Part shown: in pieces, positions 10,251 to 24,088 of the stretch
Layout of the letters: each line of letters starts with the position of its first letter
Position numbering within the stretch: position 1 is the stretch's first letter
Assembly (NCBI GenBank): GCA_947383145.1
Contig: CANDCH010000019.1
Span: forward strand, 1 to 34,178
Length of the DNA: 34,178 nucleotides
Origin: an uncultured bacterium
Lineage (GTDB): Bacteria > Bacillota > Clostridia > Oscillospirales > Oscillospiraceae
Direction: 5' to 3'
Notes under the pieces: generated by a model
What the model saw: the letters and a program-made list of their open reading frames with translations, nothing else
Database searches by the model: none
What the model was told of the DNA's origin: nothing
Program-made: the position numbers and the translations under genes

Positions 10251-10263
10251 CCGAAAACGAAGC

Positions 10264-10301
10264 AAAACCGCCGGACAGCAGCGGCGCTGTCCGGCGGTTT
10301 T
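10264..10301. terminator. Bidirectional terminator between PHP and DASS genes
   Basis: A 12-bp perfect stem (10268-10279 with 10286-10297), six-base loop, preceded by AAAA and followed by TTTT. It can end both the plus-strand phosphatase transcript and the minus-strand carrier transcript, whose stop codons lie just outside it. Confidence 0.93.
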
Positions 10302-10315
10302 ATGTACTCCTGAGG

Positions 10316-11788
10316 TCAGCTCATGAAGAGGTTCGTCATGGGAATGCCGATCACCAGCACCAGCGCCAGCTCCAGCAGGACGATGACGGCGCAGTATTTG
10401 TAGATATCCTTGGCGTCCAGCCAGTCCTTGTTGCCGAACATCATGGCGGCGAAGGGGGAGGCGGCGGGGGTCACCATGGCGCAGCTGAGCACGAAGAAGA
10501 TGGACAGGGTGACGATGGGGGCGGCGTTGATGCCGTTGGTCATGCAGAAGTTCAGGATGACCGGCTGCATGATCATGCCCACCACCAGGGAGTTGCACAG
10601 GTTGGTCAGAACCATCAGCAGCACCATCATGGCGATGACGAAGGTCACCGTGTTCATGCCGGAGAAGATGGGGGTCAGCACCACGTTCAGGAAGGCGGAG
10701 ATGCCCGTGTTTTCCGCGGTGAGCACATTGCCGATCAGGATGGCCGTCAGGCAGATGAAGAAGGAAGGCCAGGCAAACTGGGTGGTCATCACCTTGCCGA
10801 ACTTCAGCACCGGCTCGCCCTGGATGAGAACGGCGGAGAGAATGGCCACAAACCCCACGCACAGGCCCAGGGAGTTGGCGCTGAGGAACGCCATGCCGGG
10901 GAGGGAGGGAACCCAGCTGGGCAGCAGCATGAACAGAACGTATACGCAGAAGGCGCCGGACAGGAGCTTCTGCCGGAGGGTCATGGGCGGCAGGGGGTTC
11001 TTGTTCAGGTCGGCCACCTTGAGCTCCTTCAGCTTGGATACGTCGGGGCGGAAAACGAATTTGCAGAAGAGGATGGTGGCGGCCAGGATGATGACGGCCA
11101 GGAGGAGGGTGCAGGTCAGGTACATGGCGTCGTTGAGCACCACGTCGCTGCCGGCGGCGGCGGAGATGTTGCGGTAGTTGGCCAGCAGGGCCAGGCCGTT
11201 GCTGGCATAGGGCGGCACCGGGAAGCCAAGCAGGGCGCCGAACACCACCAGAATGACCATCAGCTTGACATATTTGTCATTCCGGGACATGCCAAGCTGT
11301 TGGAACACCCCGTACATGATGGGCCAGAACAGGAAGATGGGGGCGAAGGGCGCGGCCATCACGAAGGACATGACGCAGCAGCCCAGGGAGATCACAAAGG
11401 TGAACACCCAGGGCCGGCCCTCCATGACCTTGCGGGTGAGGAACCAGCGGCCGATGTACAGGGTGATCTTCTCCTCCACCAGCGCGCCGGTGAAAATCAT
11501 CATGAACATCATCTGGACGACCACGGGGGCGCCGAAGGCGGCGGACAGCACCCCGGCCATGGGGGCGTAGCTGCTCACGCCGATGGCGAAGATGCACAGG
11601 ATGCTGGACCAGAGGGGGTCCACGGTGGTCCACAGGTAGAGGGTGCCGATGAAGATGCCCAGCACCTCCATGCCGGTGGGGGTGACCTCCGGCAGGGAGA
11701 TGGGCAGAAGATGGAACAGCAGCATGATGGCGATGCCGATGGCGGAGTGGATCATGGGCATCAGGCCGGACTTCTTTTTGTCAGCCAT
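10316..11788 (-). CDS. DASS/SLC13-type anion:cation symporter
   Basis: The product is a 490-residue membrane protein with about twelve hydrophobic segments. It has the DASS layout: a long N-terminal membrane half, a charged loop at about 265-290, and a second half with a conserved Asn/Ser/Pro-rich turn ('NLCNSLVVGMIMQP' and 'VTPAASPFAAMMFGN'). Family members take up sulfate, di- and tricarboxylates or sulfonates with Na+. The substrate here cannot be read directly. It follows the thioredoxin-reductase-like gene by 68 nt on the same strand, divergent from the sulfotransferase and sulfite reductase genes, so a sulfated or sulfonated anion is a reasonable guess. ATG 11788 follows AAGGAG with 9 nt spacing. 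Other anions, such as tartrate or succinate, remain possible. Confidence 0.82.
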   Translation of the reverse strand: MADKKKSGLMPMIHSAIGIAIMLLFHLLPISLPEVTPTGMEVLGIFIGTLYLWTTVDPLWSSILCIFAIGVSSYAPMAGVLSAAFGAPVVVQMMFMMIFTGALVEEKITLYIGRWFLTRKVMEGRPWVFTFVISLGCCVMSFVMAAPFAPIFLFWPIMYGVFQQLGMSRNDKYVKLMVILVVFGALLGFPVPPYASNGLALLANYRNISAAAGSDVVLNDAMYLTCTLLLAVIILAATILFCKFVFRPDVSKLKELKVADLNKNPLPPMTLRQKLLSGAFCVYVLFMLLPSWVPSLPGMAFLSANSLGLCVGFVAILSAVLIQGEPVLKFGKVMTTQFAWPSFFICLTAILIGNVLTAENTGISAFLNVVLTPIFSGMNTVTFVIAMMVLLMVLTNLCNSLVVGMIMQPVILNFCMTNGINAAPIVTLSIFFVLSCAMVTPAASPFAAMMFGNKDWLDAKDIYKYCAVIVLLELALVLVIGIPMTNLFMS

Positions 11789-11856
11789 ACGGATAAGCTC
11801 CTTCTCTTTTTCTCAGATATGGTTGGTATCGTCCAGGGGGCAGGCTGTTCCTCCGG

Positions 11857-13029
11857 TTATGCACCTCCCACCTTGACCGCCGCGGCCGGCTGCCGGTCGT
11901 TCAGAGTGATGCCGTAGCGCAGCGCCAAGCTCTTTTTGCGTGTGATGTCCAGCTCCATGAACCGGCAGGGGGCGGCGGAACGCTCGTTCTCCTCCCGCAG
12001 CTGGTTGAGCCGCTCCAGGCTGCCGGGGATCTCGGGGGACCAGAAGCCCAGCAGGGTGGGGGTATCCGATTCCAGCACGCTTGTGCGGAAGTCGTTCATC
12101 TCGCTGATATACCGCTCGGCGGCGGTGGCGGCGGCGGCGCCGTCGCTGACGGCGGTGGCCACCTGGCGCAGGTATTTCTGCCGCACGTCCCCCGCGGCGA
12201 ACACGCCCCCGATGCCCAGGTCCATATCGTCCCCGGTGTGGAGCCAGCCGCGCTCGTCCGTGGGGACCTGCTCCCCCAGGAAGCCGGTCTCGGGAACCAT
12301 GCCGCAGAAGAAGAACACGCCCTGACAGGGGAAGTCGGTGATCTCCCCGGTTTTGGCGTTTTTCACATGGATGCCCTCCACGTTGTCCCTGCCGTAAATG
12401 TCCGCCAGGGAGCTGTTCCAGAGGAAATGCATTTTAGGCTCGGCGAACGCCCGCTCCTGGGCCACCTTGTTGCAGTCCAGAACGCCCTCATCGTGGATGA
12501 CGACCACCGTGACCTTGGAGGCGAACTTGCAGATGTAGAGCCCCTCCTCGATGCCCTGGTCGCCGCTGCCCACCACCACGACCTCCTGATCCTGGAAGAA
12601 CTCCGCGTCGCAGGTGGCGCAGTAGGCCACGCCCATGCCGGTGAACTCCGCCTCGCCGGGGATGTTCAGCTTGCGGGCGGTGGTTCCGGTGGCGATGATA
12701 ACCGCCGGGGCCTCGTACTGGTGGCGGCGGGTCTTCACCACCTTCAGCTCTCCCGAGACGTCCAGGGACTTGGCCGCCTCCTTGCGGATTTCCACGCCGA
12801 ACTTCTCCGCGTGGGCGCGCATCCGCTCCATCAGGGCGGGGCCCGTGGTCTCGGCCACCGAGGGATAGTTCACGATTTCACGGGTGGTAAAGGCCCGGCC
12901 GCCCACATTATCCTTTTCCAGCACCAGCGTTTTCAGCCGCGCCCGCCCGCCGTAGATTCCGGCGGCCAGTCCGGCGGGCCCGCCGCCGATAATCACCAGG
13001 TCAAAGCGCTCCATCGCTGTCTCTGCCAT
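11857..13029 (-). CDS. Thioredoxin-reductase-like flavoprotein with Trx-like C-terminal extension
   Basis: The product has 390 residues, about 80 more than normal bacterial thioredoxin reductase. FAD binding is shown by 'IIGGGPAGLAAGIYGGRA' (13-30) and 'GGVFAAGDVRQKY'. The redox pair is Cys137/Cys140 in 'YCATCDAEF'. The second nucleotide-binding site is altered: 'GSGDQGIEEG' replaces the usual GGGDSA pattern, and the NADPH 2'-phosphate motif HRRxxxR is missing ('VVIHDEGVLDC' instead), so NADPH use is doubtful; NADH or ferredoxin-type electron supply are alternatives. Residues 312-390 look like a thioredoxin fold without its CXXC ('LLGFWSPEIPGS' where WCxxC would be). Start ATG 13029 follows AGGAGG. 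It heads a two-gene unit with the DASS carrier and is divergent from a thioredoxin gene, its likely partner. Confidence 0.85.
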   Translation of the reverse strand: MAETAMERFDLVIIGGGPAGLAAGIYGGRARLKTLVLEKDNVGGRAFTTREIVNYPSVAETTGPALMERMRAHAEKFGVEIRKEAAKSLDVSGELKVVKTRRHQYEAPAVIIATGTTARKLNIPGEAEFTGMGVAYCATCDAEFFQDQEVVVVGSGDQGIEEGLYICKFASKVTVVVIHDEGVLDCNKVAQERAFAEPKMHFLWNSSLADIYGRDNVEGIHVKNAKTGEITDFPCQGVFFFCGMVPETGFLGEQVPTDERGWLHTGDDMDLGIGGVFAAGDVRQKYLRQVATAVSDGAAAATAAERYISEMNDFRTSVLESDTPTLLGFWSPEIPGSLERLNQLREENERSAAPCRFMELDITRKKSLALRYGITLNDRQPAAAVKVGGA

Positions 13030-13068
13030 AAAATCAGCCTCCTATGATAAAAATGGTAAATAGTGAAA

Positions 13069-13098
13069 TTGACAATGCGCGGGAGTTAATGTTATAAT
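13069..13098 (+). promoter_or_regulatory. Consensus promoter of the trx-sulfotransferase run
   Basis: TTGACA (13069-13074) and TATAAT (13093-13098) match consensus with an 18-bp spacer. The transcript would have a leader of about 145 nt before the thioredoxin start. A second TATAAT (13184-13189) lacks a good -35. Confidence 0.8.
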
Positions 13099-13106
13099 TT
13101 TAACAT
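13089..13106. promoter_or_regulatory. CRP/FNR-geometry palindrome over the trx promoter
   Basis: ATGTTA (13089-13094), six bases, then TAACAT (13101-13106) form a perfect inverted repeat in the 5-6-5 spacing typical of CRP/FNR-family sites. A further ATGTTA half-site follows at 13105-13110. The site covers the -10 hexamer, which suggests repression. The regulator is unknown. Confidence 0.5.
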
Positions 13107-13249
13107 GTTATGACCCCTCCGATCTATACAAAATGCTTATGAGGCATTCGCAAAACAAATGGCAGATTTGGGCGAAACAACGTTATAATAAAAGGGACAT
13201 GCTCAGGCGTTTTGTAAAAATTGATCAAATGACAAAAGGAGGAATGCGT

Positions 13250-13561
13250 ATGGAGACCTTGAACCGGGTGGCCTTCCAGGAGATCGTGGAGGGGGACGGC
13301 GAGCCCTGCCTCGTCATCTTCTCCCGGAAATCCTGCCATGTCTGTCAGGCCGTTCACGGCAAGCTGGACAATCTGGAGGGGGAGTACCCCGACGTCCCCT
13401 TCTATGAGGTGGATGTGGAGGCGGACCCTGAGCTCCAGAACAAATTCAGCCTGAAGGGCGTGCCCCATGTGCTTCTGTTCAAGGACGGCGAGGTGCTGGC
13501 CCGCCTGACTGGAAACCACGATGAGGACGAGTACGCCGACAAGATTGAGGAATTCCTGTAA
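13250..13561 (+). CDS. Thioredoxin-family protein with CHVC active site
   Basis: A 103-residue single-domain thioredoxin. The active site is Cys29-His-Val-Cys32 ('SRKSCHVCQAV'), not CGPC, and the usual Trp before the first Cys is replaced by Ser. The cis-proline segment 'KGVPHVLLFKDGE' is intact. The dipeptide between the cysteines tunes redox potential in this fold, so CHVC suggests a specialised partner. I chose ATG 13250 because AAAGGAGG ends 7 nt before it; an ATG at 13244 lies only one base after that site. It is cytoplasmic, with no signal peptide. The sulfotransferase gene follows after 39 nt and the reductase-like gene is divergent, so these three probably act together. Confidence 0.85.
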   Translation: METLNRVAFQEIVEGDGEPCLVIFSRKSCHVCQAVHGKLDNLEGEYPDVPFYEVDVEADPELQNKFSLKGVPHVLLFKDGEVLARLTGNHDEDEYADKIEEFL

Positions 13562-13600
13562 CCAAGATGTCAATACGCTAAATTTAAGGAGGAAATTGTT

Positions 13601-15025
13601 ATGGCCAGACCTACCGTATTCCCCACCGGCACCACGATCTATAATCCGGACAAGTGCTGGAGCGGCTACACCCTCTTTACCGCGCCGGCCAAGGGCGTGA
13701 CCCTGATCGACATGAACGGCAAGGTCGTGCGCTGGTGGAAGGACTTCCAGGGCTTCCCCTGCAAAATGGTCCCCGGCGGCAAGGTGTTCGGCTCCCTGGG
13801 CTCCCGCGACGCCCAGGTGGCCTACCAGGATCAGAACGACGTCACCGAAATCGACTGGGACGGCAACGTGCTCTGGTCCTTCGACCACAACCAGTTTGTG
13901 GACGACGAGGACACCGGCCCCCGCTGGGTGGCCCGCCAGCACCACGACTTCCAGATCGAGGGCAACCCCGTGGGCTACTACGTCCCCGGCCAGGACCCCA
14001 AGGACGACTTCGGCAAAATGCTCATCCTGACCCACAACGACGTGAACAAGCCCAAGGTGTCTCCCCAGCTGCTGCTTGAGGACGTGCTGCTGGAGGTGGA
14101 CCGGGAGGGGAACGTCCTGTGGAGCTGGAACCTGATGGACCACTTCCGCGAGTTCAACCTGAGCGAGACCCAGAAGAACACCATCTTCCGCGACCCCAAC
14201 ACCCAGCAGACCGGCCCCGACGGCCAGGGCGACATCTTCCACATCAACTGCGCCAGCTATCTGGGCCCCAACAAGTGGTTCGACCAGGGCGACGAGCGGT
14301 TCAACCCGGAGAACATCATCATGGACTCCCGGGAAGCCAACATCATGTTCATCGTCTCCAAGAAGAACGGGAAGGTGGTCTGGTCCATCGGCCCCGACTA
14401 CACCGCCAGCCGCGAGCTGCGGATCATGGGCCCCATCATCGGCATGCACCACTCCCACATGATTCCCAAGGGCCTGCCCGGCGAGGGCAATATCATGGTG
14501 TTTGACAACGGCGGCTGGGCCGGCTACGGCGCTCCCTCCCAGGTGTCCACCATGGGCATCAAGTCCGAGCGGCGCGACTACTCCCGGGTGATGGAGATCA
14601 ATCCCCTGACCCTGAAGATCGAGTGGTCCTTCACCCCCGGCGACCTGGGCTTCAAGACCCCGTTCACCGCTACTTATTTCTACTCCCCCCTGACCTCCAA
14701 CGCCCAGCGCCTGCCCAACGGCAACACCGTTATCACCGAGGGCACCACCGGCCGCATCATTGAGGTCACCGCGGACAAGGAGCTGGTCTGGGAGTACAAC
14801 TATCCCGACGTGGGCCCCGCGCTGCTCTACCGCGCCTACCGCGTCCCCTATGAGTGGGTGCCCCAGCTGCCCAAGCCCCAGGAGGTCCCCGTCGCCAAGC
14901 TGGACAACGCCAAATTCCAGGTTCCCGGCGCCAGCGACCCCACCGTTACCGACGAAACCGGGGTCACCGTGGCCGGCACCAAGGGCTTCGGCACCATGGG
15001 CCACTTCTGCGTGGATAAGCTGTAA
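13601..15025 (+). CDS. Cytoplasmic arylsulfate sulfotransferase-like protein
   Basis: The product has 474 residues and the repeating beta-propeller pattern of arylsulfate sulfotransferases (ASST): 'VDREGNVLWSWN', 'NGKVVWSIGPDY', 'AQRLPNGNTVITEG' and the family end 'YRAYRVPYEWVPQL'. Known ASSTs move a sulfuryl group from a phenolic sulfate to another phenol through a histidine, without PAPS. Candidate catalytic residues are His114/His115 ('RQHHDFQ'), His214 ('FHINCAS', where the family has HxNS), His283/His284/His286 ('IGMHHSHMIP') and Arg325. Unlike the periplasmic enterobacterial enzymes, it has no signal peptide, so it should act in the cytoplasm. It contains Cys19, Cys54, Cys217 and a Cys near the end. 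ATG 13601 follows AAGGAGG. It sits between thioredoxin and LysR, upstream of asrABC. The true donor and acceptor are unknown. Confidence 0.85.
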   Translation: MARPTVFPTGTTIYNPDKCWSGYTLFTAPAKGVTLIDMNGKVVRWWKDFQGFPCKMVPGGKVFGSLGSRDAQVAYQDQNDVTEIDWDGNVLWSFDHNQFVDDEDTGPRWVARQHHDFQIEGNPVGYYVPGQDPKDDFGKMLILTHNDVNKPKVSPQLLLEDVLLEVDREGNVLWSWNLMDHFREFNLSETQKNTIFRDPNTQQTGPDGQGDIFHINCASYLGPNKWFDQGDERFNPENIIMDSREANIMFIVSKKNGKVVWSIGPDYTASRELRIMGPIIGMHHSHMIPKGLPGEGNIMVFDNGGWAGYGAPSQVSTMGIKSERRDYSRVMEINPLTLKIEWSFTPGDLGFKTPFTATYFYSPLTSNAQRLPNGNTVITEGTTGRIIEVTADKELVWEYNYPDVGPALLYRAYRVPYEWVPQLPKPQEVPVAKLDNAKFQVPGASDPTVTDETGVTVAGTKGFGTMGHFCVDKL

Positions 15026-15059
15026 AAAGACAGGGAAGCCTGCAAGAGAAGAGATTGGC

Positions 15060-15085
15060 CCGGGGCGGCCGGGAGGCCGCCCCGG
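15060..15085 (+). terminator. Hairpin after the sulfotransferase gene
   Basis: An 11-bp perfect G/C stem (15060-15070 with 15075-15085) and a four-base loop are followed by AGCCTCTTTC. The U tract is interrupted, so this may be a partial terminator or an RNA-stabilising 3' end that lowers expression of lysR and asrABC relative to the sulfotransferase. Confidence 0.55.
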
Positions 15086-15133
15086 AGCCTCTTTCAGATA
15101 TGCGCGGCGGATTGAGGGAGGTACTGTACTGCG

Positions 15134-16099
15134 ATGCGCTTGGAGCAATTGACCTACGTTGTGACCATTGCGGACTGCCGCTCTATTTCAAAGGCGGCGA
15201 AAAAGCTGTACGTCACTCAGCCGGCCCTGAGCAACGCCCTGCGGGACCTGGAGAAGGAGCTGAACTTTCCAATTTTCTACCGGAACGCCCAGGGGGTTTC
15301 CCTCACGGAAAAAGGGGAGGAGCTGTACCGCATCGCCCAATCCATCCAGAGCGACCTGGAGCAGATACACCGGCTGTCCGCGAAGGGGCGTCACGCCGAT
15401 AAAATCAACATCGCCGCCGCGCCGCTGGTGTGCTGCTACGCCTTCTTTGAGGCCATGGACTCGATCCGGATCGCTTTCCCGGGGCTGGATCTGTCCATTG
15501 TGGAGCTGCGCCCCAGGCAGATGTCGCAGGCCTTGGGCGGCGGCGCGGTGGACATCGCCCTGTGCGGCTACCGCGTCTCCCGGCGCAAGGAGTTCGCCCA
15601 GGCCATGAGCCAGCTGGGGCTGGAGCGGGAGTCCCTGGCCCGGTGGCCCTTCGCCGTGTTTCTGCCGGCCCAGAGCCCCCTGGCCCAGGAGAGAATTCTC
15701 TCCCTGGAGCAGATCCGGGAGCTGCCCATCATCTGTTTTCAGGACTACGAGACCAGCGGGGCCCAGGCCTATAACATCCAGGCCGCCTGCACCTTTACCA
15801 GCCGGGCCAGCATCAAGGACGCCGTCTCCCACGGCAGGGGGTGCGCCCTGCTTCCCATCTCCATGGCCCTGGACGATGTGTATTTCGAGTGCGACAAAAT
15901 CAAGGTCGTTCCCCTGAAGGAGACCTCCCTCATCCACGTGGATTTGGTGTACCGCCGGTCCAAAACCATGACGGAGGAGGAGACGGCCATTCTGGAGATT
16001 ATCAGAAGCTATATCCGAAAGGCGGACGCCCGCCTGGCCCGGCAGTTTCTCCGGGGACAAAAATACGCCGTGGGCAGCAACATCTGGCTGCCCTACTAA
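15134..16099 (+). CDS. LysR-family transcriptional regulator
   Basis: The product has 321 residues. The N-terminal winged helix is clear: 'RLEQLTYVVTIADCRSISKA' begins the domain, followed by 'LYVTQPALSNALRDLEKEL' and 'YRNAQGVSLTEKG'. Residues 90-300 form the two-lobed effector-binding domain. LysR proteins usually activate a nearby operon when they bind a small pathway metabolite. Being embedded between the sulfotransferase and asrA, 21 nt before asrA, it probably controls this sulfur region; CysB and Cbl are precedents for LysR control of sulfur genes, but I see nothing that places it in those subfamilies. ATG 15134 follows GGGAGG. I found no convincing T-N11-A site that I would assign to it. 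Confidence 0.9.
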   Translation: MRLEQLTYVVTIADCRSISKAAKKLYVTQPALSNALRDLEKELNFPIFYRNAQGVSLTEKGEELYRIAQSIQSDLEQIHRLSAKGRHADKINIAAAPLVCCYAFFEAMDSIRIAFPGLDLSIVELRPRQMSQALGGGAVDIALCGYRVSRRKEFAQAMSQLGLERESLARWPFAVFLPAQSPLAQERILSLEQIRELPIICFQDYETSGAQAYNIQAACTFTSRASIKDAVSHGRGCALLPISMALDDVYFECDKIKVVPLKETSLIHVDLVYRRSKTMTEEETAILEIIRSYIRKADARLARQFLRGQKYAVGSNIWLPY

Positions 16100-16120
16100 A
16101 ACCGAAGAGGAGGTATGAAC

Positions 16121-17158
16121 ATGGGTTATACCCTGAACCGCCAGCAGGCGGACGCCCTGCTGGCCGCGCTTCGCAAGGACTACACGGTTTACGCCCCCAA
16201 GCGCTTCCGCAATCAGGGACGCTATTCCGACACCGATATTATCCGCTACGCTGAGGTGGAGCGGTTTGAGGACATCGTGTGGCAGACCAAATCCGATTAC
16301 CCTGCCAAGGAGGTGCTCACCCCCATCCAGCAAGCCATTTTTTACTTCACCGAGGACGAGTACCGGGAGAGCAAGGGGCCCAGGAAGCCCATTCTCATTC
16401 TGGCCCGGCCCTGCGACATCAACGCCCAGCACGTTCAGGCCAGAATTTACGCCGGAAACGGCGGCTACACCGACCTGTACTATGAGCGGATGCGGGAGCT
16501 GGTCAAGTTTGCCATGATGGAGTGCGGCGGCGGGGACGACACCTGCTTCTGCGTGTCCATGGGCACCAACAAGACCGACGACTATTCCCTGGCCATGAAG
16601 TTCTCCGACGACGGGGTGCAGGTCCAGGTGACGGACGGCGCCTTCGCCCCCTATTTCGGGGACCTGCCCCAGGCCGACTACACCCCCGCCTTCGTCGAGG
16701 AGAACGAGCTGAAGGTGACGGTGCCCGACCTGGACGACAAGGAAGTGCGCAAGGCCTTGAAGAGCCACCCCATGTGGCAGGAGTTCAACGCCCGCTGCAT
16801 CTCCTGCGGCGCGTGCACCGTGGCCTGCTCCACCTGCACCTGCTTTACCACCCGCGACGTGATCTACGGCGACAACCCCGAGGTGGGCGAACGCCGCCGG
16901 GTCACCTCCTCCTGCCAGATCGCCGGCTTCGACCAGATGGCGGGACAGCGGGAGTTCCGCTCCACCGCAGCGGACCGGATGCGCTACAAGGTGCTCCACA
17001 AGTTCCACGACTACAAGGCCCGTTTTGGGGACAGCCACATGTGCGTCGGCTGCGGCCGCTGCACCCACCGCTGCCCGGAGCTGATCTCCATCTCCGCTAC
17101 CGTCAACAAGGTCAGCGCGGCTGTGGACGAGATCAAGGCCGGTCTGGCCAAGCAGTAA
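16121..17158 (+). CDS. asrA: Anaerobic sulfite reductase subunit A
   Basis: The product is a 345-residue iron-sulfur electron-transfer subunit. It carries two ferredoxin-type [4Fe-4S] motifs: 'CISCGACTVACSTCTC' (from residue 226) and 'CVGCGRCTHRCPEL' (from 308), plus the family 'ARPCDI' segment near residue 98. In the Salmonella-type Asr enzyme, AsrA passes electrons between AsrB and the siroheme subunit AsrC for the six-electron reduction of sulfite to sulfide in the cytoplasm. I chose ATG 16121 (GAGGAGG 7 nt upstream) over ATG 16115, which is one base from that site. asrB follows after 18 nt. Confidence 0.95.
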   Translation: MGYTLNRQQADALLAALRKDYTVYAPKRFRNQGRYSDTDIIRYAEVERFEDIVWQTKSDYPAKEVLTPIQQAIFYFTEDEYRESKGPRKPILILARPCDINAQHVQARIYAGNGGYTDLYYERMRELVKFAMMECGGGDDTCFCVSMGTNKTDDYSLAMKFSDDGVQVQVTDGAFAPYFGDLPQADYTPAFVEENELKVTVPDLDDKEVRKALKSHPMWQEFNARCISCGACTVACSTCTCFTTRDVIYGDNPEVGERRRVTSSCQIAGFDQMAGQREFRSTAADRMRYKVLHKFHDYKARFGDSHMCVGCGRCTHRCPELISISATVNKVSAAVDEIKAGLAKQ

Positions 17159-17176
17159 GGAAGGAGGCGCGTGATT

Positions 17177-17968
17177 ATGATGAACCCTGTACAGCCCAAG
17201 CCCTGCACGATTTTAGACGTACATAAGGAGAGCGCCCACGAGTGGACCTTCCGGGTGGAGACCGACGCGAAGGTGGCCCACGGCCAGTTCATGCAGCTGT
17301 CCGTTCCCAAGATCGGCGAGTGCCCCATCTCGGTGTCCGCCCAGGGGGACGGCTGGCTGGAGTTTACCATCCGCAGCGTGGGCAAGGTGACCAACGTCAT
17401 TTTTGAGAAGACCGCCGGAGACACCCTGTTCCTCCGGGGCCCCTACGGCAAGGGCTGGCCTGTGGACCAGTTCCGGGGCAAGCACCTTGTGGTCATCACC
17501 GGCGGAACCGGTCTGGCCCCCGTGCGCTCCATGCTGAATCTGTTCGCGGCGGAGTCCGGCGCGGTGAAGAGCGTCCACCTGATCTCCGGCTTCAAGAACG
17601 AGGAGGGCGTTGTGTTCCACAAGGAGCTGGAGGCCTGGAAGGAGAAATTCTCCACCATCTACGCGCTGGACAACGACGCCAAGGAGGGCTGGCGCACCGG
17701 CATGGTGACCGCCTTTGTCAAGGAGATTCCCTGGGATTCCTTCGGCGGCGATTACGCCGTTGTGGTGGTGGGTCCGCCCCCCATGATGAAGTTCACCGGC
17801 CTGGAGCTGCTGAAGAACGGGGTGGACGAGGAGAAAATCTGGATGAGCTTCGAGCGGAAGATGTCCTGCGCCGTGGGCAAGTGCGGCCACTGCCGCATCG
17901 ACGAAACCTATGTCTGCCTGGACGGGCCGGTGTTCCCCTATACCGTGGCCCGGGACCTGGTGGACTGA
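17177..17968 (+). CDS. asrB: Anaerobic sulfite reductase subunit B
   Basis: The product is 263 residues and belongs to the ferredoxin-NADP reductase-like family. Visible elements are the flavin-binding 'RGPYGKGW', the nucleotide-binding 'ITGGTGLAPVRSM', the late 'VVGPPPMMKF' and a C-terminal cysteine cluster 'CAVGKCGHCRI...YVC' that holds a [2Fe-2S] centre, as in dihydroorotate dehydrogenase electron-transfer subunits. It takes electrons from NADH and passes them to AsrA. ATG 17177 lies 9 nt after AAGGAGG; a GTG at 17171 is only 3 nt from it. asrC follows after 18 nt, so the three subunits form one operon. Confidence 0.95.
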   Translation: MMNPVQPKPCTILDVHKESAHEWTFRVETDAKVAHGQFMQLSVPKIGECPISVSAQGDGWLEFTIRSVGKVTNVIFEKTAGDTLFLRGPYGKGWPVDQFRGKHLVVITGGTGLAPVRSMLNLFAAESGAVKSVHLISGFKNEEGVVFHKELEAWKEKFSTIYALDNDAKEGWRTGMVTAFVKEIPWDSFGGDYAVVVVGPPPMMKFTGLELLKNGVDEEKIWMSFERKMSCAVGKCGHCRIDETYVCLDGPVFPYTVARDLVD

Positions 17969-17986
17969 GAAAGGAGCGCGTGAACG

Positions 17987-19054
17987 ATGAACCATGACAT
18001 CAACGTGAAAAAGCTGCGGCTGAACTGCTTCCGCCAGTCCAAGGTTCCCGGCGAGTTCATGCTCCAGATGCGCGTCCCCGGCGGCACGGTGGACGCCAAG
18101 TACCTGTCCGTCATCCAGCACATCGCCGAGACCTGGGGCGACGGCGCGTTCCATTTCGGCACCCGCCAGACCTTTGACATCACCGGCATCAAGTATGAGA
18201 ACATCCCGGCCGTCAACGAGTACCTGGAGCAGTATATCCGGGAGGTGGACGCGGAGCTGTGCGGGGTGGATATGGACACCGTGGCCCACGAGCCCCACCC
18301 CTGGGACCCCAAGTCCGGCTACCCCACCATCGGCGCCCGGAACATCAGCGGCTGCATCGGCAACTACCACTGCATCTGCGGCAACATCAACACCTTTGAG
18401 CTGGCGCGGAAGATCGAGGGCATTATCTTCCCCAGCCACTATCACATCAAGATCAACATCTCCGGCTGCCCCAACGACTGCAACAAGGCCCACCTGTGCG
18501 ATTTCGGCATCATCGGCGTGTCCAAGATGACCTATCACGCCCAGCGCTGCATCGGCTGCGCCGCCTGCGTCCGGGCCTGTGAGCACGGGGCCACCCGGGT
18601 GCTGTCCCTCAACGAGGGCATCGCCAAGATCGACAAGGACCCCTGCTGCTGCGTGGGCTGCGGCGAGTGTGTGCGGGCGTGCCCCACCAGCGCGTGGACC
18701 CGGAGCGAGGAGCCGCTGTACCGGGTGATCCTGGGCGGCCGCACCGGCCGTCAGACCCCCCGGACGGGCAAGATGTTCCTGAACTGGGCCAGCGAGGACG
18801 TGGTGCTTGGCGTGCTGAAGAACTGGCAGAAGTTCTCCGCGTGGGTGATGGACTATAAGCCCGAGTACCTCCACGGCGGCCACCTGATCGACCGCGCGGG
18901 CTACAAGAAGTTCAAGGAGATTGTCCTGGAGGGTGTGGAGCTCAACCCCGAGTGCCTTGTGGCGGAGGATATCTTCTGGCACGAGACCGAGTACCGCTCC
19001 AACTTCAACGTGAAGCCCATCGAGCTGCACCATACCGCCGGACCCCGGGCGTAA
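17987..19054 (+). CDS. asrC: Anaerobic sulfite reductase subunit C (siroheme catalytic subunit)
   Basis: The product has 355 residues. The siroheme/[4Fe-4S] signature is present as Cys123-X5-Cys129 ('GCIGNYHC') and Cys161-X3-Cys165 ('GCPNDCNKAH'). A ferredoxin insert follows with 'CIGCAACVRACEHG' (from 188) and 'CVGCGECVRACPTS' (from 222), as known for AsrC. This is the site of sulfite reduction to sulfide. 'FGTRQTFDITGI' near residue 57 is the substrate-side arginine region of the nitrite/sulfite reductase half-domain. ATG 17987 follows AAAGGAG. Its cofactor would be made by the enzymes encoded at 21829-23944 in the same run. Confidence 0.95.
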   Translation: MNHDINVKKLRLNCFRQSKVPGEFMLQMRVPGGTVDAKYLSVIQHIAETWGDGAFHFGTRQTFDITGIKYENIPAVNEYLEQYIREVDAELCGVDMDTVAHEPHPWDPKSGYPTIGARNISGCIGNYHCICGNINTFELARKIEGIIFPSHYHIKINISGCPNDCNKAHLCDFGIIGVSKMTYHAQRCIGCAACVRACEHGATRVLSLNEGIAKIDKDPCCCVGCGECVRACPTSAWTRSEEPLYRVILGGRTGRQTPRTGKMFLNWASEDVVLGVLKNWQKFSAWVMDYKPEYLHGGHLIDRAGYKKFKEIVLEGVELNPECLVAEDIFWHETEYRSNFNVKPIELHHTAGPRA

Positions 19055-19075
19055 GCGGGCGTTTTTGCAGGGGAA

Positions 19076-19107
19076 AAGGGCGTCCCGGCTCTCACCGGGG
19101 CGCCCTT
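19076..19107 (+). other. Intercistronic hairpin between asrC and the ABC transporter
   Basis: A 13-bp stem including one G-U pair (19076-19088 with 19095-19107) and a six-base loop, with no T run after it. It could protect the asr message or reduce read-through into the transporter genes. Confidence 0.55.
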
Positions 19108-19125
19108 ACTGCCGGGAGGGGTACG

Positions 19126-20085
19126 ATGAAACGATTGAGTCTGATTCTTACGGCGCTGCTGCTCCTGCTGGCCGGCTGCGGCGGGAGCGGGGCGCCCGGC
19201 GGGGAAAGCGCTGCCCCCGCGCCCTCCGGGCCGGAGGCCGTGACGTTCACCGACGATCTGGGCCGGGAGGTGTCGCTGGCCCGGCCCGCCCGGGTGGCGG
19301 CTCTGATCGGCAGCTTTGCCGACGTCTGGTGTCTGGCGGGGGGGCGGGATACGCTGGCCGCCGCGGCCAACGACGCCTGGACCTCCTTTGACCTGGAGCT
19401 GGACGAAGCGGTGGCCGACCTGGGGGCGGTGAAGGAGCCCAATTTGGAGGTGCTGCTGGCCGCGGAGCCTGATTTTGTCATCGGCAGCGTGTCCACGGCG
19501 GCGGACCTGGAGCTGGAGCCCGCGCTGACCCAGGCGGGTATTCCCGTGGCCTATTTTGACGTGGACGGCTTTGAGGACTATCTGCGGATGCTGGAGATCT
19601 GCACACGGCTCACCGAAAAGCCGGAAAATTACACCCGCTATGGGACGGAGGTGGCCGCCCGGGTGGAGGCGGCCATTGCCCGGCAGGACGGCAGCGCGCC
19701 CCGGGTGCTGTGTATGCGGGCCACCGGCTCCTCCTGCAAGGTCAAGGGCAGCGAGGGCACCGTGCTGGGCGAGATGCTGGCGGCGCTGGGGTGCGTCAAC
19801 GTGGCCGACAGCGACGCCTCCCTTTTGGAGGAGCTGAGCCTGGAGGCCATCATCGCCGCGGACCCGGATTATATTTTTGCGGCTCTTCAGGGCGCGGACC
19901 CCAGCAAAGCTCTGGCGGCGCTGGAGGCCGGACTGCTGTCCAATCCCGCCTGGGAAACCCTGACGGCGGTGAAGGAGGGGCGGTTCTACACCATGGAGCA
20001 CGCCCTCTACAATCTGAAGCCCAACGCGCGATGGGGAGAAGCCTATGAAAAGCTTGCGGACATCCTCTACCCCGGGGAACAATAG
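19126..20085 (+). CDS. Metal-chelate/cobalamin ABC transporter substrate-binding lipoprotein
   Basis: The product has 319 residues. The lipobox is clear ('LLAGC', Cys18), so it is anchored outside the membrane. The body is of the FecB/BtuF type (class III binding protein): 'TFTDDLGREVSLARPARVAA' begins the mature domain, 'LEVLLAAEPDFVIG' marks the first lobe, then a long linking helix, and 'AIIAADPDYIFA' the second lobe. Ligands in this family are B12, haem and iron-siderophores; no residue here decides among them. ATG 19126 follows GGGAGGGG. The permease gene starts inside its last 41 nt. Confidence 0.88.
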   Translation: MKRLSLILTALLLLLAGCGGSGAPGGESAAPAPSGPEAVTFTDDLGREVSLARPARVAALIGSFADVWCLAGGRDTLAAAANDAWTSFDLELDEAVADLGAVKEPNLEVLLAAEPDFVIGSVSTAADLELEPALTQAGIPVAYFDVDGFEDYLRMLEICTRLTEKPENYTRYGTEVAARVEAAIARQDGSAPRVLCMRATGSSCKVKGSEGTVLGEMLAALGCVNVADSDASLLEELSLEAIIAADPDYIFAALQGADPSKALAALEAGLLSNPAWETLTAVKEGRFYTMEHALYNLKPNARWGEAYEKLADILYPGEQ

Positions 20086-21064
20086 AATTCTGGCCTGGGC
20101 CGCTCTGGGCGCGCTGTGCGCGGCCTGCGCGGTTCTCAGCCTGTGCCTGGGGCCGGTGCCCGTGGGCCTGGGGGATACCCTGGGGGCGCTGCTGGGGCGG
20201 GGCGAGGGGCCCCAGGCCCACATCGTCCTCTATTCCCGGCTGCCCCGGACCTGCGGCTGCCTGCTGGCGGGAATGGCCCTGGCGGTGTCCGGAACGGTGA
20301 TCCAGGGGGTGCTGGGCAATCCCATGGCGGCGCCCAACATCATTGGAGTCAACGCGGGGGCGGGGCTTATGACGGCCCTGCTGGGGGCGGCGGCCCCCGC
20401 GGCGGCGTCCGCCGCCCCGCTGGCCGCTTTTTTGGGGGCGCTGCTGGGTGTGATGCTGGTGCTGGGCATCGCGGAGCGCACCGGGGCCTCCAAGCTCACC
20501 CTCATCCTGGCGGGGATGGCGGTGTCCGCCGTCTTTTCCGCGGGCATCGACGCGGTGGTGACGTTTGTGCCCGACGCCCTGCTGGGCTATTCGGACTTCC
20601 GCATCGGCAGTCTGGCCGGATTGACCATGGCACGGCTGGCCCCCGCCGCCTGGGTGATCCTGCCGGTCTTTGGGCTGGTGCTGTCCCTGGCGGGGGAGAT
20701 GGATATCCTGATGCTGGGCCGGGACGTGTCCCAGAGCCTGGGCCTGCGGGTGAAGCCCATGCGGCTGCTGCTGCTGGGGCTGGCCGCGGCCCTGGCGGGG
20801 GCGGCGGTGAGCTTCTGCGGCCTGCTGGGCTTTGTGGGGCTCATCGTGCCCCATATCATGCGCCGCCTGCTGGGGGAGGAGAGCCGGGGGCTTGTGCTGG
20901 GCTCCGCGCTGGGAGGGGCGGCCATGCTCACCGGCTGCGACCTGCTGGGGCGGCTGCTGTTCGCCCCCTTTGAGCTGCCCGTGGGCATCGTGCTGTCCTT
21001 TGTGGGGGGCCCCTTCTTCATCGTCCTGCTGCTGCGGCAGAGAGGAGGGCGGATTCATGATTGA
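20045..21064 (+). CDS. FecCD/BtuC-type ABC transporter permease
   Basis: A 339-residue permease with about ten hydrophobic helices. The FecCD signatures are 'RLPRTCGCLLAGMALAVSGT' near residue 63 and 'CGLLGFVGLIVPHIMRRLLG' near 259, the latter containing the loop that contacts the ATPase. It forms the membrane channel for metal-chelate or cobalamin uptake, as a homodimer with two ATPase subunits. The reading frame overlaps the binding-protein gene by 41 nt and the ATPase gene by 8 nt, so all three are translationally coupled. The ribosome binding site GGGGAGAAG lies within the binding-protein coding sequence. Confidence 0.92.
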   Translation: MKSLRTSSTPGNNRILAWAALGALCAACAVLSLCLGPVPVGLGDTLGALLGRGEGPQAHIVLYSRLPRTCGCLLAGMALAVSGTVIQGVLGNPMAAPNIIGVNAGAGLMTALLGAAAPAAASAAPLAAFLGALLGVMLVLGIAERTGASKLTLILAGMAVSAVFSAGIDAVVTFVPDALLGYSDFRIGSLAGLTMARLAPAAWVILPVFGLVLSLAGEMDILMLGRDVSQSLGLRVKPMRLLLLGLAAALAGAAVSFCGLLGFVGLIVPHIMRRLLGEESRGLVLGSALGGAAMLTGCDLLGRLLFAPFELPVGIVLSFVGGPFFIVLLLRQRGGRIHD

Positions 21065-21812
21065 GCTGCGGGAGCTGTCGGTGGGCTATGGGCGCAGCGC
21101 GGTGGCGCGAGGGGTGTCCATGGAGCTGGAGCCGGGAAAGGTGATTGCCCTGCTGGGCCCCAACGGCTGCGGGAAGAGCACCCTGCTGAGAACAATTCTG
21201 TGCCTCCAGCCCAAGCTGGCGGGGGAGATTCTGGTGGACGGGACGCCCTCGGAGCGGCTTACCCCCCGGCAGCTGGCCCAAAAGGCCGCCTATCTGGCCC
21301 AGTCCCGCGCGACCCCCAACATCACCGCCCGTCGCATGGTGCTCCACGGCCGGTTTCCCTACCTCTCCTACCCCCGGCGCTACCGGCGGGAGGACTATGA
21401 GATGGTGGAAAAGGCCCTTCGGTGGGCGGACGCGGAGGGCATTGCGGACCGCTTCATGGGGGAGCTCAGCGGGGGCCAGCGGCAGAAGGTCTATCTGGCC
21501 ATGGCCCTGGCGCAGGACACCCAGACCATTCTGATGGACGAGCCCACCACCTTTCTGGACGTGGCCCGCCAGCTGGAGGTCATGGCCACCGCCCGCCGCC
21601 TGGCGCGGGAGGGGAGAGCGGTGCTCATGGTGCTCCACGACCTGTGCCTCGCCCTGCGCTGGGCGGACAAGGTCGCCGTTTTGGCGGAGGGCGGACTGCT
21701 GTTTCAGGGGACGCCGGAGGAGGCGGTGGAGGCGGAGATCTTAAACCGGGTCTTCGGCGTCCGGCTGTCCCGGGTGATGACGGAGTCCGGCTGGCAGTAT
21801 TATTATGGGTAG
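21057..21812 (+). CDS. ABC transporter ATP-binding protein (FecE/BtuD type)
   Basis: A 251-residue ATPase with Walker A 'GPNGCGKST' (34-42), Q-loop 'AYLAQS', signature 'LSGGQRQKV', Walker B 'TILMDEPTTFLDV' and H-loop 'VLHDL'. It drives import through the FecCD permease encoded just upstream. ATG 21057 overlaps the permease stop by 8 nt and has GGAGG upstream. The siroheme gene follows after 16 nt, so transporter and siroheme genes very likely share a transcript. Confidence 0.93.
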   Translation: MIELRELSVGYGRSAVARGVSMELEPGKVIALLGPNGCGKSTLLRTILCLQPKLAGEILVDGTPSERLTPRQLAQKAAYLAQSRATPNITARRMVLHGRFPYLSYPRRYRREDYEMVEKALRWADAEGIADRFMGELSGGQRQKVYLAMALAQDTQTILMDEPTTFLDVARQLEVMATARRLAREGRAVLMVLHDLCLALRWADKVAVLAEGGLLFQGTPEEAVEAEILNRVFGVRLSRVMTESGWQYYYG

Positions 21813-21828
21813 AGAGGGGGAGGCGCGT

Positions 21829-22461
21829 ATGGCGTACTTTCCGTTTTTTGTGGAACTGGACCGCCAGGAGGGCTTGATTGTGGGCGGCTCCACGGTGGCG
21901 CTGCGAAAAATTGAAAAGCTGCTGCCCTATGGGCCCCGGCTGACGGTATGCGCCCCCGATATCTGCGGGGAAATCCGGGCGGTGTCCGGCCTGCGGCTGG
22001 TGGAGCGGGCCTTTTCCCCGGAGCTTTTGGAGGGGAAGGCGTTCGTGATCGCCGCCACGGGCGACCGGCAGGCGAACCGCCGGATCTCCCAGCTGTGCCG
22101 GGAGGAACGGATTCCCGTGAATGTGGTGGACGACCGGGACTGCTGTTCGTTTTTGTTCCCCGCCCTGGTGAAGCGGGGCGGGCTCAGCATAGGCGTATCC
22201 ACCGGAGGGGCCAGCCCCACCGGCGCGATCTACTGGAAAAAGCGGATCGACGACATGATTCCGGAGCGTTTTGGGGACATTCTGGCCCACCTGGACGGCG
22301 TCCGGGACGCGGCCAAGGAGACGCTTCACGGGGAAGCGGCCCGGAGCGGGTTTTTCGCCGCGCTGTTTGCCGCCGACATGGAGCGGGGCGGGCCGCTGGA
22401 CCGGGAGGAGACCCAGGCGCTGCTGGAGCGGCGCCGGAGGGAGGAGGAGAACGGTGGATAA
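21829..22461 (+). CDS. Precorrin-2 dehydrogenase/sirohydrochlorin ferrochelatase-like protein (Met8/CysG-N type)
   Basis: The product is 210 residues, the length of a free-standing Met8-type enzyme. The NAD-binding motif is 'LIVGGSTVALRKIEKLL', then 'ATGDRQANRRIS' and 'NVVDDRDCCSFLFPALVKRG', and the chelatase signature region 'SIGVSTGGASPTGA'. It oxidises precorrin-2 with NAD+ to sirohydrochlorin and, in bifunctional members, inserts Fe2+ to give siroheme. Whether this copy also chelates iron cannot be read with confidence. ATG 21829 follows GGGGGAGG; ATG 21805 is less likely because it overlaps the ATPase end and lacks a site. It overlaps the next gene by 8 nt. The product feeds AsrC. Confidence 0.9.
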   Translation: MAYFPFFVELDRQEGLIVGGSTVALRKIEKLLPYGPRLTVCAPDICGEIRAVSGLRLVERAFSPELLEGKAFVIAATGDRQANRRISQLCREERIPVNVVDDRDCCSFLFPALVKRGGLSIGVSTGGASPTGAIYWKKRIDDMIPERFGDILAHLDGVRDAAKETLHGEAARSGFFAALFAADMERGGPLDREETQALLERRRREEENGG

Positions 22462-23944
22462 ACAGGGAAAGGTCTATCTGGTGGGGGCGGGCTGCGGGGA
22501 GGCCGACCTCATCACCCTGCGGGGGCTGCGGCTGCTGCGGGAGTGCGGCGCGGTGGTTTATGACGACCTCATTGACAGGTCGCTTCTGCGGGAGGCCCCG
22601 GCCTGTGCCGAGATCATCTACATGGGCAAACGGCAGGGCAGGCACTCGGCCAGCCAGGAGGAGATCTGCGCCAAGCTGGTCCAGCTGGCCCGGGCCGGAA
22701 AGACGGTGGTCCGGCTGAAGGGGGGAGACCCCTTTGTGTTTGGACGGGGCGGGGAGGAGCTGCTGGCCCTGGGGCGGGCGGGCGTCCCCTGCGAGGTGGT
22801 TCCCGGGATCAGCTCCGCCCTGGCCGTTCCGGCGCTGGCGGGCATACCCGTGACCCACCGGGGGCTGAGCCGGAGCGTCCACATTGTCACCGCCCATACC
22901 GCGGATACCCCGGACGGCCTGCCCGGCGGATTTGACCGGCTGGCGGCCCTGTCCGGGACGCTGGTGTTCCTCATGGGGCTGTCCCGGCTGGAGGAGATCA
23001 CCCGGCGGCTGGCGGCGGCGGGCAAGCCGGGGGACACCCCTGCGGCTGTCCTGTCCGGCGGCAGCGCCCCTCACCCGGCCCAGGTGCGGGGAACGCTGGC
23101 GGATGTGGCGGAAAAGGCCCGCGCGGCGGGCGTACAGCCCCCGGCGGTCATTGTGGTGGGCGAGACGGCGGGGCTGGAGCTGCCCGTGCCCGCCGCCCCC
23201 CCGCTGAGGGGGGTGACCGTGGGCCTTTCCGGCTCGGGGCCCATGATCAAAAAGCTGAGGGACGCCTTGGAACCCCTGGGGGCCAGAACCTTTACGGCCC
23301 AGCGCTCCATCCTCCGGGAGCTGCCCCTCTCCATAGAGCTGGGCAGCCTGTGCGGCGGCGCGCCCCGCTGGCTGGTATTCACCAGCGCCAACGGCGTGAG
23401 GGAGTTTTTCCGGCGGCTGAGGGCGGAGCGGGTGGACCTGCGGCGGCTGGGTCAGTGCCGCTTTGCGGTCATCGGCGCGGCCACGGGGGAGGCCCTGGCG
23501 GGACAGGGCTTCCAGGCCGACCTTGTGCCGGAGCGCTACACCACCGCCGCGCTGGCCCAGGCCCTGCTGGAGGCGGCCGCGCCCCGGGAGGAAATTGTGC
23601 TGCTGCGCTCCCGGCAGGGCTCTGCCGAGCTGTTCCAGACCCTTTCGGCGGCCCGGACGGTGCGGGACATTCACCTTTACGACGCCGAACCCGCCCCGCC
23701 GGCGGCGGGGGACGCGGAGCTGCTGGCCCAGGCGGATTATCTGGCGTTTACCAGCGCCGGAGGGGTGAAGCTGTTTTTGGAGCGGCACGGCGGCCTGCCC
23801 GGGCGGGCGGAGTGCGTCTGCATTGGGGAGGTGACCGCCGCCGCGCTGGCCAGAAGCTGCGGGGTGACCCCGGTGGTCGCCGGAGACACCAGCGCGGCGG
23901 GGATTGCGGCGGCCATTCTCGCGCGGCGCCGTCCGCCCGTATAG
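22454..23944 (+). CDS. cobA-hemD: Fused uroporphyrinogen-III C-methyltransferase and uroporphyrinogen-III synthase
   Basis: The product has 496 residues in two domains. Residues 1-245 are an S-adenosylmethionine:uroporphyrinogen-III methyltransferase: 'LVGAGCGEADLITLRGLRLL', 'VYDDLID', 'RLKGGDPFVFGRGGEE' and 'HRGLSRSVHIVTAH'. Residues 250-496 match uroporphyrinogen-III synthase by layout ('VFTSANGVREFFRRL', 'FAVIGAATGEAL', 'FTSAGGVKLFLE'), a family with low conservation. Together they convert hydroxymethylbilane to precorrin-2. This fusion is common in Firmicutes. The start is GTG 22454 behind GAGGAGGAG, overlapping the Met8-like gene by 8 nt. Genes for the earlier steps (hemA, hemL, hemB, hemC) are not in the window. 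A strong hairpin closes the transcript. Confidence 0.92.
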   Translation: MDKQGKVYLVGAGCGEADLITLRGLRLLRECGAVVYDDLIDRSLLREAPACAEIIYMGKRQGRHSASQEEICAKLVQLARAGKTVVRLKGGDPFVFGRGGEELLALGRAGVPCEVVPGISSALAVPALAGIPVTHRGLSRSVHIVTAHTADTPDGLPGGFDRLAALSGTLVFLMGLSRLEEITRRLAAAGKPGDTPAAVLSGGSAPHPAQVRGTLADVAEKARAAGVQPPAVIVVGETAGLELPVPAAPPLRGVTVGLSGSGPMIKKLRDALEPLGARTFTAQRSILRELPLSIELGSLCGGAPRWLVFTSANGVREFFRRLRAERVDLRRLGQCRFAVIGAATGEALAGQGFQADLVPERYTTAALAQALLEAAAPREEIVLLRSRQGSAELFQTLSAARTVRDIHLYDAEPAPPAAGDAELLAQADYLAFTSAGGVKLFLERHGGLPGRAECVCIGEVTAAALARSCGVTPVVAGDTSAAGIAAAILARRRPPV

Positions 23945-24059: not shown

Positions 24060-24088
24060 TTGACAACTGGCCGCCAAAATATTACAAT
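24060..24088 (+). promoter_or_regulatory. Promoter of the M60 protease gene
   Basis: TTGACA (24060-24065) and TACAAT (24083-24088) with a 17-bp spacer. The AT-rich leader of about 60 nt before the start codon contrasts with the GC-rich surroundings. Confidence 0.8.

Follow-up and report, generated by a model that had tools for sequence, protein, structure and literature searches.

How might a bacterium in which genes for sulfate activation were not found provide sulfite to a sulfite reductase? This question is raised by a 34,178-nucleotide stretch of DNA (the window), which is contig 19 (CANDCH010000019.1) of the 2.48 Mb, 85% complete genome assembly GCA_947383145.1 of an uncultured Oscillospiraceae bacterium. 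A 220-bp divergent region in the window separates genes for a thioredoxin reductase (TrxR)-like flavoprotein and a membrane carrier, reading leftward, from a rightward series that runs from a thioredoxin gene (trx) through genes for a sulfotransferase resembling arylsulfate sulfotransferases (ASSTs), a LysR-type regulator, the sulfite reductase AsrABC and an ATP-binding cassette (ABC) importer to two siroheme genes. The list of open reading frames (ORFs) confirms the positions and orientations of all genes named in an earlier note made from the DNA alone. Comparative genomic analyses suggest that the cluster probably encodes a thioredoxin (Trx)-coupled, ATP-independent sulfate-ester reductase feeding AsrABC.

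Proposed pathway

The carrier, a DASS-like protein, would import a sulfated organic anion, and the cytosolic ASST-like propeller, in which the necessary residues are present, would load the sulfuryl group on His283, as Escherichia coli ASST does on His436. The sulfo-His283 could then hand the group to Cys470 on the C-terminal tail to give S-sulfocysteine, and a Trx with a CHVC active site would attack this Bunte salt, by analogy with adenosine 5'-phosphosulfate (APS)/3'-phosphoadenosine 5'-phosphosulfate (PAPS) reductases, to yield sulfite and oxidized Trx. Judging from their families, the TrxR-like flavoprotein would re-reduce Trx with NAD(P)H, and AsrABC, with siroheme supplied by the operon, would convert sulfite to sulfide. 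The net reaction would be R-OSO3- + NAD(P)H -> R-OH + sulfite, followed by sulfite + 6 e- -> sulfide; bacteria without a siroheme-type reductase (NIR_SIR, PF01077) protein would end at sulfite. The pathway is probably induced by Rex at high NADH/NAD+, and may serve as both an electron sink and a sulfur source.

The ASST-like protein and its catalytic residues

The ASST-like protein of the window passes the PF05935 cut-off (71.4 versus 24.2 bits) and that of PF14269, and its Pfam matches are limited to these two families. The Ig-like domain of canonical ASSTs (PF17425), which is present in L045, was not found in the window protein, which argues that the ASST-like proteins form a separate subfamily. 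An AlphaFold2 (AF2) model of the protein, with a predicted local distance difference test (pLDDT) score of 85.6, has Cpz4 (9kf6) and E. coli ASST (3ets, 4p04) as its best Foldseek matches, with template modelling scores of 0.46-0.54 over the query. A phmmer search of the Protein Data Bank (PDB) with the single window sequence gave no useful match, and the C-terminal segment of the canonical enzymes likewise matched no PDB entry.

The comparison was based on 65 distinct ASST-like genes left after duplicate removal, including that of the window, with neighbours scored within 3 kb. Twenty-eight genome-collection loci were collected by similarity to the window gene, and the further loci are regions around chosen matches, not all, from 31 of 398 genomes with matches. 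Both the ASST-like and the canonical loci were therefore chosen by similarity and are not a random sample, and the neighbour counts are lower bounds because short loci with less than 3 kb of flank are included.

Alignments place H214, N216, R244 and H283 of the window protein at H356, N358, R374 and H436 of E. coli ASST, and a profile alignment places them at H284, N286, R302 and H351 of the canonical set. The four residues are conserved in 62, 63, 65 and 62 of the 65 ASST-like proteins, respectively, one H283 cell being an unread X. In the profile-profile alignment of the two sets, which has a probability of 98.2%, the HHD, HxN, R and QH motifs are paired; HHD corresponds to H114-H115-D116 in the window protein, and the residues of these motifs are conserved in 62-65 of the 65. 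According to an excerpt of PMC13426309, E. coli ASST holds the sulfuryl group on His436, and the sequences of the wild-type (3elq) and H436N (4p04) structures differ at the QH position aligned with canonical H351.

A conserved cysteine in the C-terminal tail

Cys470 lies four residues from the C-terminus, within a tail that has pLDDT below 50 in the AF2 model. This tail cysteine is present in 56 of the 65 ASST-like proteins, is followed by V or I in 55 of the 56, and is the sole conserved cysteine. The nine proteins without it are L026-L028, L043, L044, L021, L005 and two Peptoniphilus fusions. An N-terminal hydrophobic stretch occurs in five proteins (L021, L026, L028, L043 and L044), and the tail cysteine is missing in all of these versus 4 of the 60 others (Fisher p ~1.5e-5, calculated by hand with kinship ignored), and L027, one of these four, has by eye a signal-like stretch further in; such N-termini were scored by applying a hydropathy cut-off to the initial 45 residues of ORFs whose start positions were unrefined. 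The tail cysteine is likewise missing in the exported ASSTs of E. coli, Salmonella and E. raffinosus, as well as in a short enzyme from Aerococcus that has neither a signal nor a neighbouring Trx. Among canonical ASSTs, none of the 16 loci encodes an N-terminal hydrophobic stretch, and the equivalent C582 is invariant in the 14 that were aligned (L032, a double-length ORF, and L110 being left out), as A-x-C with V as the next residue in 13 proteins and T in the remaining one.

In a fused Blautia protein, Cys473 lies in the low-confidence linker between propeller and Trx (pLDDT below 50 at 468-484). The AF2 model of this protein comprises two well-folded domains with a predicted template modelling (pTM) score of 0.72, and given this score a fixed ASST-Trx docking is unsupported. 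In the models, the linker or tail position of the cysteine would look like that of a swinging acceptor moving between ASST and Trx.

The two Peptoniphilus ASST:Trx fusions (L023:10007-11788 and L024:9995-11782) keep TrxR and a CxHC site and are both without H214, N216, H283 and the tail cysteine. Judging from these residues, their function must have changed.

Dithiol partners of the sulfotransferases

The dithiol partners of the 65 ASST-like genes comprise 17 Trx fusions, 8 adjacent Trx genes and 10 adjacent glutaredoxin (Grx)-like genes, the remaining 30 having none, and a TrxR gene scoring above 150 bits lies near 22 of the 65. Adjacent Trx and TrxR genes also occur at 8 of the 16 canonical loci. 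On the maximum-likelihood tree, in which support is weak for 19 of the 62 inner branches, at least six changes are needed for the dithiol partner and at least two for the fusion. The probability of a Trx gene falling by chance in the scanned span, scaled on the three Trx genes of the window genome, is ~0.009 per locus, so that the adjacency observed (8 of 48 unfused genes, in addition to the 17 fusions) is not attributable to chance.

ASST relatives of ~600 aa in the 28-locus set come from Blautia, Ruminococcus, Enterococcus, Vagococcus, Companilactobacillus, Liquorilactobacillus, [Clostridium] asparagiforme and Faecalicatena, and further from Mobiluncus, an Actinomycetaceae metagenome-assembled genome (MAG), Kluyvera and Peptoniphilus. 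The additional C-terminal region of these proteins has a CxHC site and, in L006, the one tested, is a thioredoxin domain by Pfam. A Cetobacterium plasmid harbors consecutive genes for TrxR, an ASST:Trx fusion with a CKNC site, and an SLC13 carrier. The Kluyvera TrxR-ASST:Trx DNA was not found in E. coli genomes, and a pattern scan for viral copies of one canonical ASST found none.

The window Trx matches PF00085 and has CHVC in place of CGPC; it falls short of the housekeeping equivalog TIGR01068 (47.1 versus 96.8 bits). Its CHVC type is a subfamily set apart by score, comprising 34 genes above 150 bits that come from 18 of 398 genomes, and ASST is present in 16 of these 18 genomes versus 31 of the 398 overall. 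The window TrxR matches PF07992, narrowly misses TIGR01292 (324.5 versus 343.45 bits) and carries a CATC motif; its homologue L103 has a PF00085 match at 313-405 in the C-terminal extension, where the window copy has no PF00085 match.

A glycine reductase (Grd) origin of the CHVC Trx was considered and rejected, as the neighbouring gene is of the PF01663 type and 30 of the 38 ASST-bearing genomes are without PF09338.

The Grx-like partners are ten proteins of 250-310 aa, namely that of L011 and its phmmer relatives, in which the glutaredoxin-like match is N-terminal and weak, and may represent a third redox-partner design. Of two proteins tried, L011 is above and L084 just under the cut-off of glutaredoxin family PF00462. 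The Grx-like loci are L011, L077-L079, L082, L084-L087 and L102, some with a ~460-aa disulfide oxidoreductase.

Conservation of the gene set and sulfur metabolism

The possibility that the set is unique to one strain, which the earlier note had named as fatal to its proposal, did not hold, since the three orthologous loci closest to the window locus (L002-L004) all keep the DASS/TrxR/Trx/ASST/LysR block. The expectation that this set would be conserved beside asrABC held for the block in all three and for asrABC adjacency only in L002, where the entire order from the DASS gene through the siroheme genes is kept; in L003 and L004, asrA starts 5.3 and 8.2 kb past lysR, with other genes between. 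In the lysR-asrA gap of L003 (L003:9289-14359) and the same region of L004, an SDF symporter (L003) and, by eye, a cysteine desulfidase look-alike were seen. Only 2 of 60 genomes in a search of relatives have the ASST gene (the window's own and one congener), so its distribution is patchy, and comparable sets have been assembled anew in other Bacillota and in Fusobacteriota, Actinomycetota and Pseudomonadota.

AsrA, AsrB and AsrC each exceed their NCBIfam cut-offs, and AsrC is the sole NIR_SIR protein in the assembly. The absence of sulfate-activation genes from the window, as reported earlier, extends to the assembly, in which a profile search of the 85% complete genome found no PF01747 ATP sulfurylase, only a partial PF01507 match (27.8 bits) and no full-length CysD or CysH. 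Among 38 ASST-bearing genomes, NIR_SIR is found in 28, any PF01507 match in 17 (several weak or partial) and ATP sulfurylase in 6, PF01747 being missing in 32, the window's among them. The loci with a nearby sulfite reductase fall into three contexts: the clade of the window (the window and L002) and Kluyvera (L012), both with AsrABC, and G170 (L046), with an assimilatory sulfite reductase (SiR). In G170, the ASST-like gene is situated between an Ssu-type ABC importer and genes for MetY, SiR and Trx-like, ThiF and JAB proteins, and in this gene order it stands as if replacing the sulfate-activation genes. A PF03601 'putative sulfate exporter' occurs in the operon in Vagococcus (by similarity), G196 and E. 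pallens; Vagococcus and G196 are among the ten genomes without NIR_SIR, and E. pallens has one NIR_SIR match. Such exporters could remove sulfite in bacteria that stop at sulfite.

For uptake, the carriers near the 65 ASST-like genes include DASS/SLC13 in 15 (or 16 if that of the window, located outside the short copy used for the count, is added), NhaC-like in 11 and Ssu-type ABC in 12. The window carrier has no direct Pfam or NCBIfam match and is tentatively assigned to DASS via its phmmer homologues L095 and L115, which match PF00939/PF03600. Its orthologues in L002-L004 show 69-79% identity and 12-13 transmembrane segments by a simple hydropathy count, and a phmmer search of the PDB with the DASS alignment gave no useful match to a solved relative.

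Promoter and Rex-like operator

The promoter and operator are common to the four orthologues, with TTGAC, TATAAT and a palindrome across the -10 element kept in L002-L004. The window operator deviates at two positions from TTGTKAN6TMACAA and no other site in the window matches within three mismatches (0.10 expected); the genome encodes Rex (PF06971, 75.7 bits). Rex-like operators with up to two mismatches lie upstream in 17 of 30 Trx-linked ASST operons, versus 2.9 +/- 1.6 of 30 in dinucleotide shuffles (maximum 7 in 200); the 30 regions include orthologues and congeners and so are not independent, and the operon starts of L018, L019, L020 and L045 were judged by eye, the L020 site lying inside an ORF if the listed start is used. 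Rex is above its cut-off in 23 of 27 genomes searched. The Rex-less genomes are Kluyvera and two Actinomycetota, without a site, and one MAG (that of L004), with a site; nine operons in Rex-bearing genomes are without an operator site. The predicted operators fit an electron-sink role, and a Rex site before asrABC has been predicted in Thermoanaerobacterium, according to part of PMC5886521.

Weighing the proposed pathway

Several observations weigh against the proposed pathway. A sulfite-reductase gene lies within 3 kb at only 4 of the 65 ASST-like loci, the asrABC linkage is loose in L003 and L004, and 10 of the 38 ASST-bearing genomes have no NIR_SIR match and therefore, if the assemblies are complete there, no siroheme-dependent reduction to sulfide. 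No Trx or Grx gene was found within 3 kb of 30 of the 65 ASST-like genes, 23 of which still have the tail cysteine, and a tight co-occurrence of tail cysteine and nearby partner was rejected as not significant (Fisher p = 0.07). The CHVC Trx adjoins ASST in only 8 of the 34 subfamily genes, and 12 of the 20 other CHVC-Trx regions fetched place it by a ~682-aa protein, those tried with Pfam matching PF01663. Among 80 permuted operator motifs (mean 3.3), one close variant scored 16 of 30, and the presence of Rex is not significantly tied to the operator (p = 0.28). Three PF00884 sulfatase-family proteins are encoded elsewhere in the window's genome (contigs C16, C6 and C17; L167, L168), so ordinary desulfation may also exist in this organism. 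The sulfate/sulfite couple lies at about -0.52 V and ester hydrolysis contributes modestly, hence reduction of an ester by NAD(P)H and Trx would need either an activated ester or a low sulfite level in order not to run uphill. In addition, a thiol acceptor for ASSTs was not found in the excerpts of review literature covered.

The scheme of the earlier note, in which ASST would sulfonate an acceptor, perhaps a thiol, Trx would free sulfite and AsrABC would consume it, draws strong comparative support from the repeatedly gained partners, catalytic residues, tail cysteine and Rex-like operators, whereas asrABC adjacency is sparse and the transporter class varies. Its statement that sulfate esters are respired was too strong, since the operon shows no energy-conserving membrane component and the pathway may also be assimilatory.

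The same redox-coupled ASST chemistry might instead act on another donor, such as an organic thiosulfonate, a sulfonate or an N-sulfate, taking SO3 from S, C or N. The range of transporters (DASS/SLC13, NhaC-like and Ssu/NMT1-type ABC) and the energetic difficulty of sulfate-ester reduction favor such a donor, but all compared catalytic residues of E. coli ASST are kept in a site known for O-sulfate esters, and simple Bunte salts would make an ASST needless, leaving this alternative unlikely. An ordinary ASST that shuttles sulfate among phenols, with Trx/TrxR keeping cytosolic thiols reduced and an unrelated sulfite reductase nearby, appears improbable in view of the one-to-one Trx fusions, the repeated gain of partners, the tail cysteine, and the transporter genes and Rex-like operators within ASST units, even though the ASST assays described in the excerpted literature concern hydroxyl and amine acceptors, 30 of the 65 genes have no nearby Trx/Grx, and 61 of the 65 have no sulfite-reductase gene within 3 kb.

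It is very unlikely that Trx/TrxR act as a foldase or redox switch of ASST, in the manner of DsbL/DsbI for the periplasmic enterobacterial enzyme. Enterobacterial ASSTs do pair with Dsb proteins (an excerpt of PMC13426309), but the window protein has neither a signal-like N-terminus nor the loop cysteine pair of the E. coli and Salmonella enzymes, the ASST-like proteins have no conserved internal disulfide because only one cysteine is conserved, and a TrxR implies the reducing direction. An accidental neighbourhood, which the presence of ASST in only 2 of 60 genomes might suggest, is hardly credible and is refuted by the comparative counts, namely the block in L002-L004, the re-assembly in four phyla and the chance of ~0.009 per locus.

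As a separate matter, exclusive dedication of the CHVC Trx to ASST was weakened by the small number of ASST-adjacent genes and by the PF01663-type neighbours; with only 8 of 34 adjoining ASST, the CHVC Trx/TrxR pair is better described as a specialised reductase module that is not ASST-only. The regions with the ~682-aa protein of the PF01663/alkaline-phosphatase superfamily (L147-L153, L155-L158 and L166) mostly have a long TrxR, and some have by eye an MFS-like carrier. They perhaps encode a second Trx-coupled sulfo- or phospho-ester enzyme.

Relation to known systems

E. coli AssT (PDB 3ELQ/3ETS/4P04) and Cpz4 (9KF4/9KF6) have the propeller and the His/Asn/Arg/His set in common with the window protein. 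Unlike E. coli AssT, the window protein has no signal-like N-terminus, no PF17425 and no loop cysteine pair, and possesses the C-terminal tail cysteine together with Trx/TrxR partners. In APS/PAPS reductase (CysH), a C-terminal cysteine becomes S-sulfonated and Trx frees sulfite from it. The likeness of the window system to CysH is one of proposed logic only, as it is built on an unrelated fold and has no nucleotide donor, and PF01507 is not matched by the ASST. All three AsrABC subunits pass the curated cut-offs of the known sulfite reductase, the difference being the proposed feeding by an ASST module in place of APS/PAPS reduction. Peptococcus niger, an anaerobic Firmicute, desulfates aryl and steroid sulfates (Van Eldere 1987/1991, as cited in excerpts of PMC12178105 and PMC3508456); this is reported as sulfatase activity, and those excerpts make no link to an ASST gene. 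A literature search of partial coverage found no paper joining ASST, thioredoxin and sulfite release, which is weak evidence of novelty.

Whether swinging-arm-cysteine sulfotransferases that, with a Trx or Grx partner, would cleave sulfate esters reductively to sulfite constitute a new class of enzyme system is, in our estimation, evenly balanced. The same even judgement applies to the wider claims that this class spans ASST-like and canonical non-exported ASSTs of several phyla as an NADH-controlled electron sink, and that its end product would be sulfide in bacteria that have a sulfite reductase and sulfite in those that have none (lactobacilli, Vagococcus, Mobiluncus). If the proposed pathway is true, bacteria unable to activate inorganic sulfate could draw sulfite and sulfide directly from organic sulfates of the gut (those of steroids, bile acids, phenols and glycans), by a route that would escape surveys restricted to sat, cysH, aprAB and dsrAB. 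Non-exported ASSTs, described in the excerpted literature mainly as sulfation biocatalysts, would gain a physiological role, and the pathway would represent convergence with APS reductase through a C-terminal cysteine on another fold. C470, His283 and the CHVC site would then each be essential for sulfite release.

Features of the locus and neighbouring genes

Table 1. Coordinates of features in the sulfotransferase-asrABC region of the window.
Feature	Position	Strand	Basis
Terminator-like hairpin closing the TrxR-DASS unit	10263..10302	-	18-pair stem, strong; consensus match only
DASS/SLC13-like anion carrier, candidate importer of sulfated compound	10316..11788	-	via phmmer homologues
TrxR-like flavoprotein, CATC motif, C-terminal extension	11857..13029	-	PF07992; TIGR01292 below cut-off
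Sigma-A-type promoter, TTGACA-18-TATAAT with TG	13069..13098	+	12/12 consensus positions
Rex-like operator ATGTTATAATTTTAACAT, overlapping promoter -10	13089..13106	.	motif match
Thioredoxin, CHVC active site at codons 13334-13345	13250..13561	+	PF00085, 54.9 bits
ASST-like sulfotransferase without signal-like N-terminus	13601..15025	+	PF05935/PF14269, alignments, fold match
Cys470 codon, conserved C-terminal tail cysteine, proposed sulfuryl acceptor	15008..15010	+	alignment
LysR-type regulator	15134..16099	+	PF00126/PF03466 above cut-offs
asrA	16115..17158	+	TIGR02910, 426 bits (cut-off 323)
asrB	17171..17968	+	TIGR02911, 322 bits (cut-off 289)
asrC, siroheme sulfite reductase subunit	17987..19054	+	TIGR02912, 368 bits (cut-off 324)
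ABC importer (binding protein, permease, ATPase), iron/heme/corrinoid type	19126..21812	+	PF01497, ORFs
Siroheme genes (Met8/CysG-N type; CobA-HemD type)	21805..23944	+	TIGR01470; PF00590 + PF02602

A terminator scan of the plus strand from trx to the end of asrC found only short candidates, both within lysR, and Rfam and tRNA scans of the window gave no matches. The binding protein of the ABC importer passes the Peripla_BP_2 cut-off, and L002 has the same ABC gene order. Directly after the siroheme genes (24154-29013), the window encodes a large protein with Peptidase_M60 (enhancin type), dockerin and fn3 domains, which has a signal peptide by eye and its own near-consensus promoter at 24060, and which is possibly mucin-directed.

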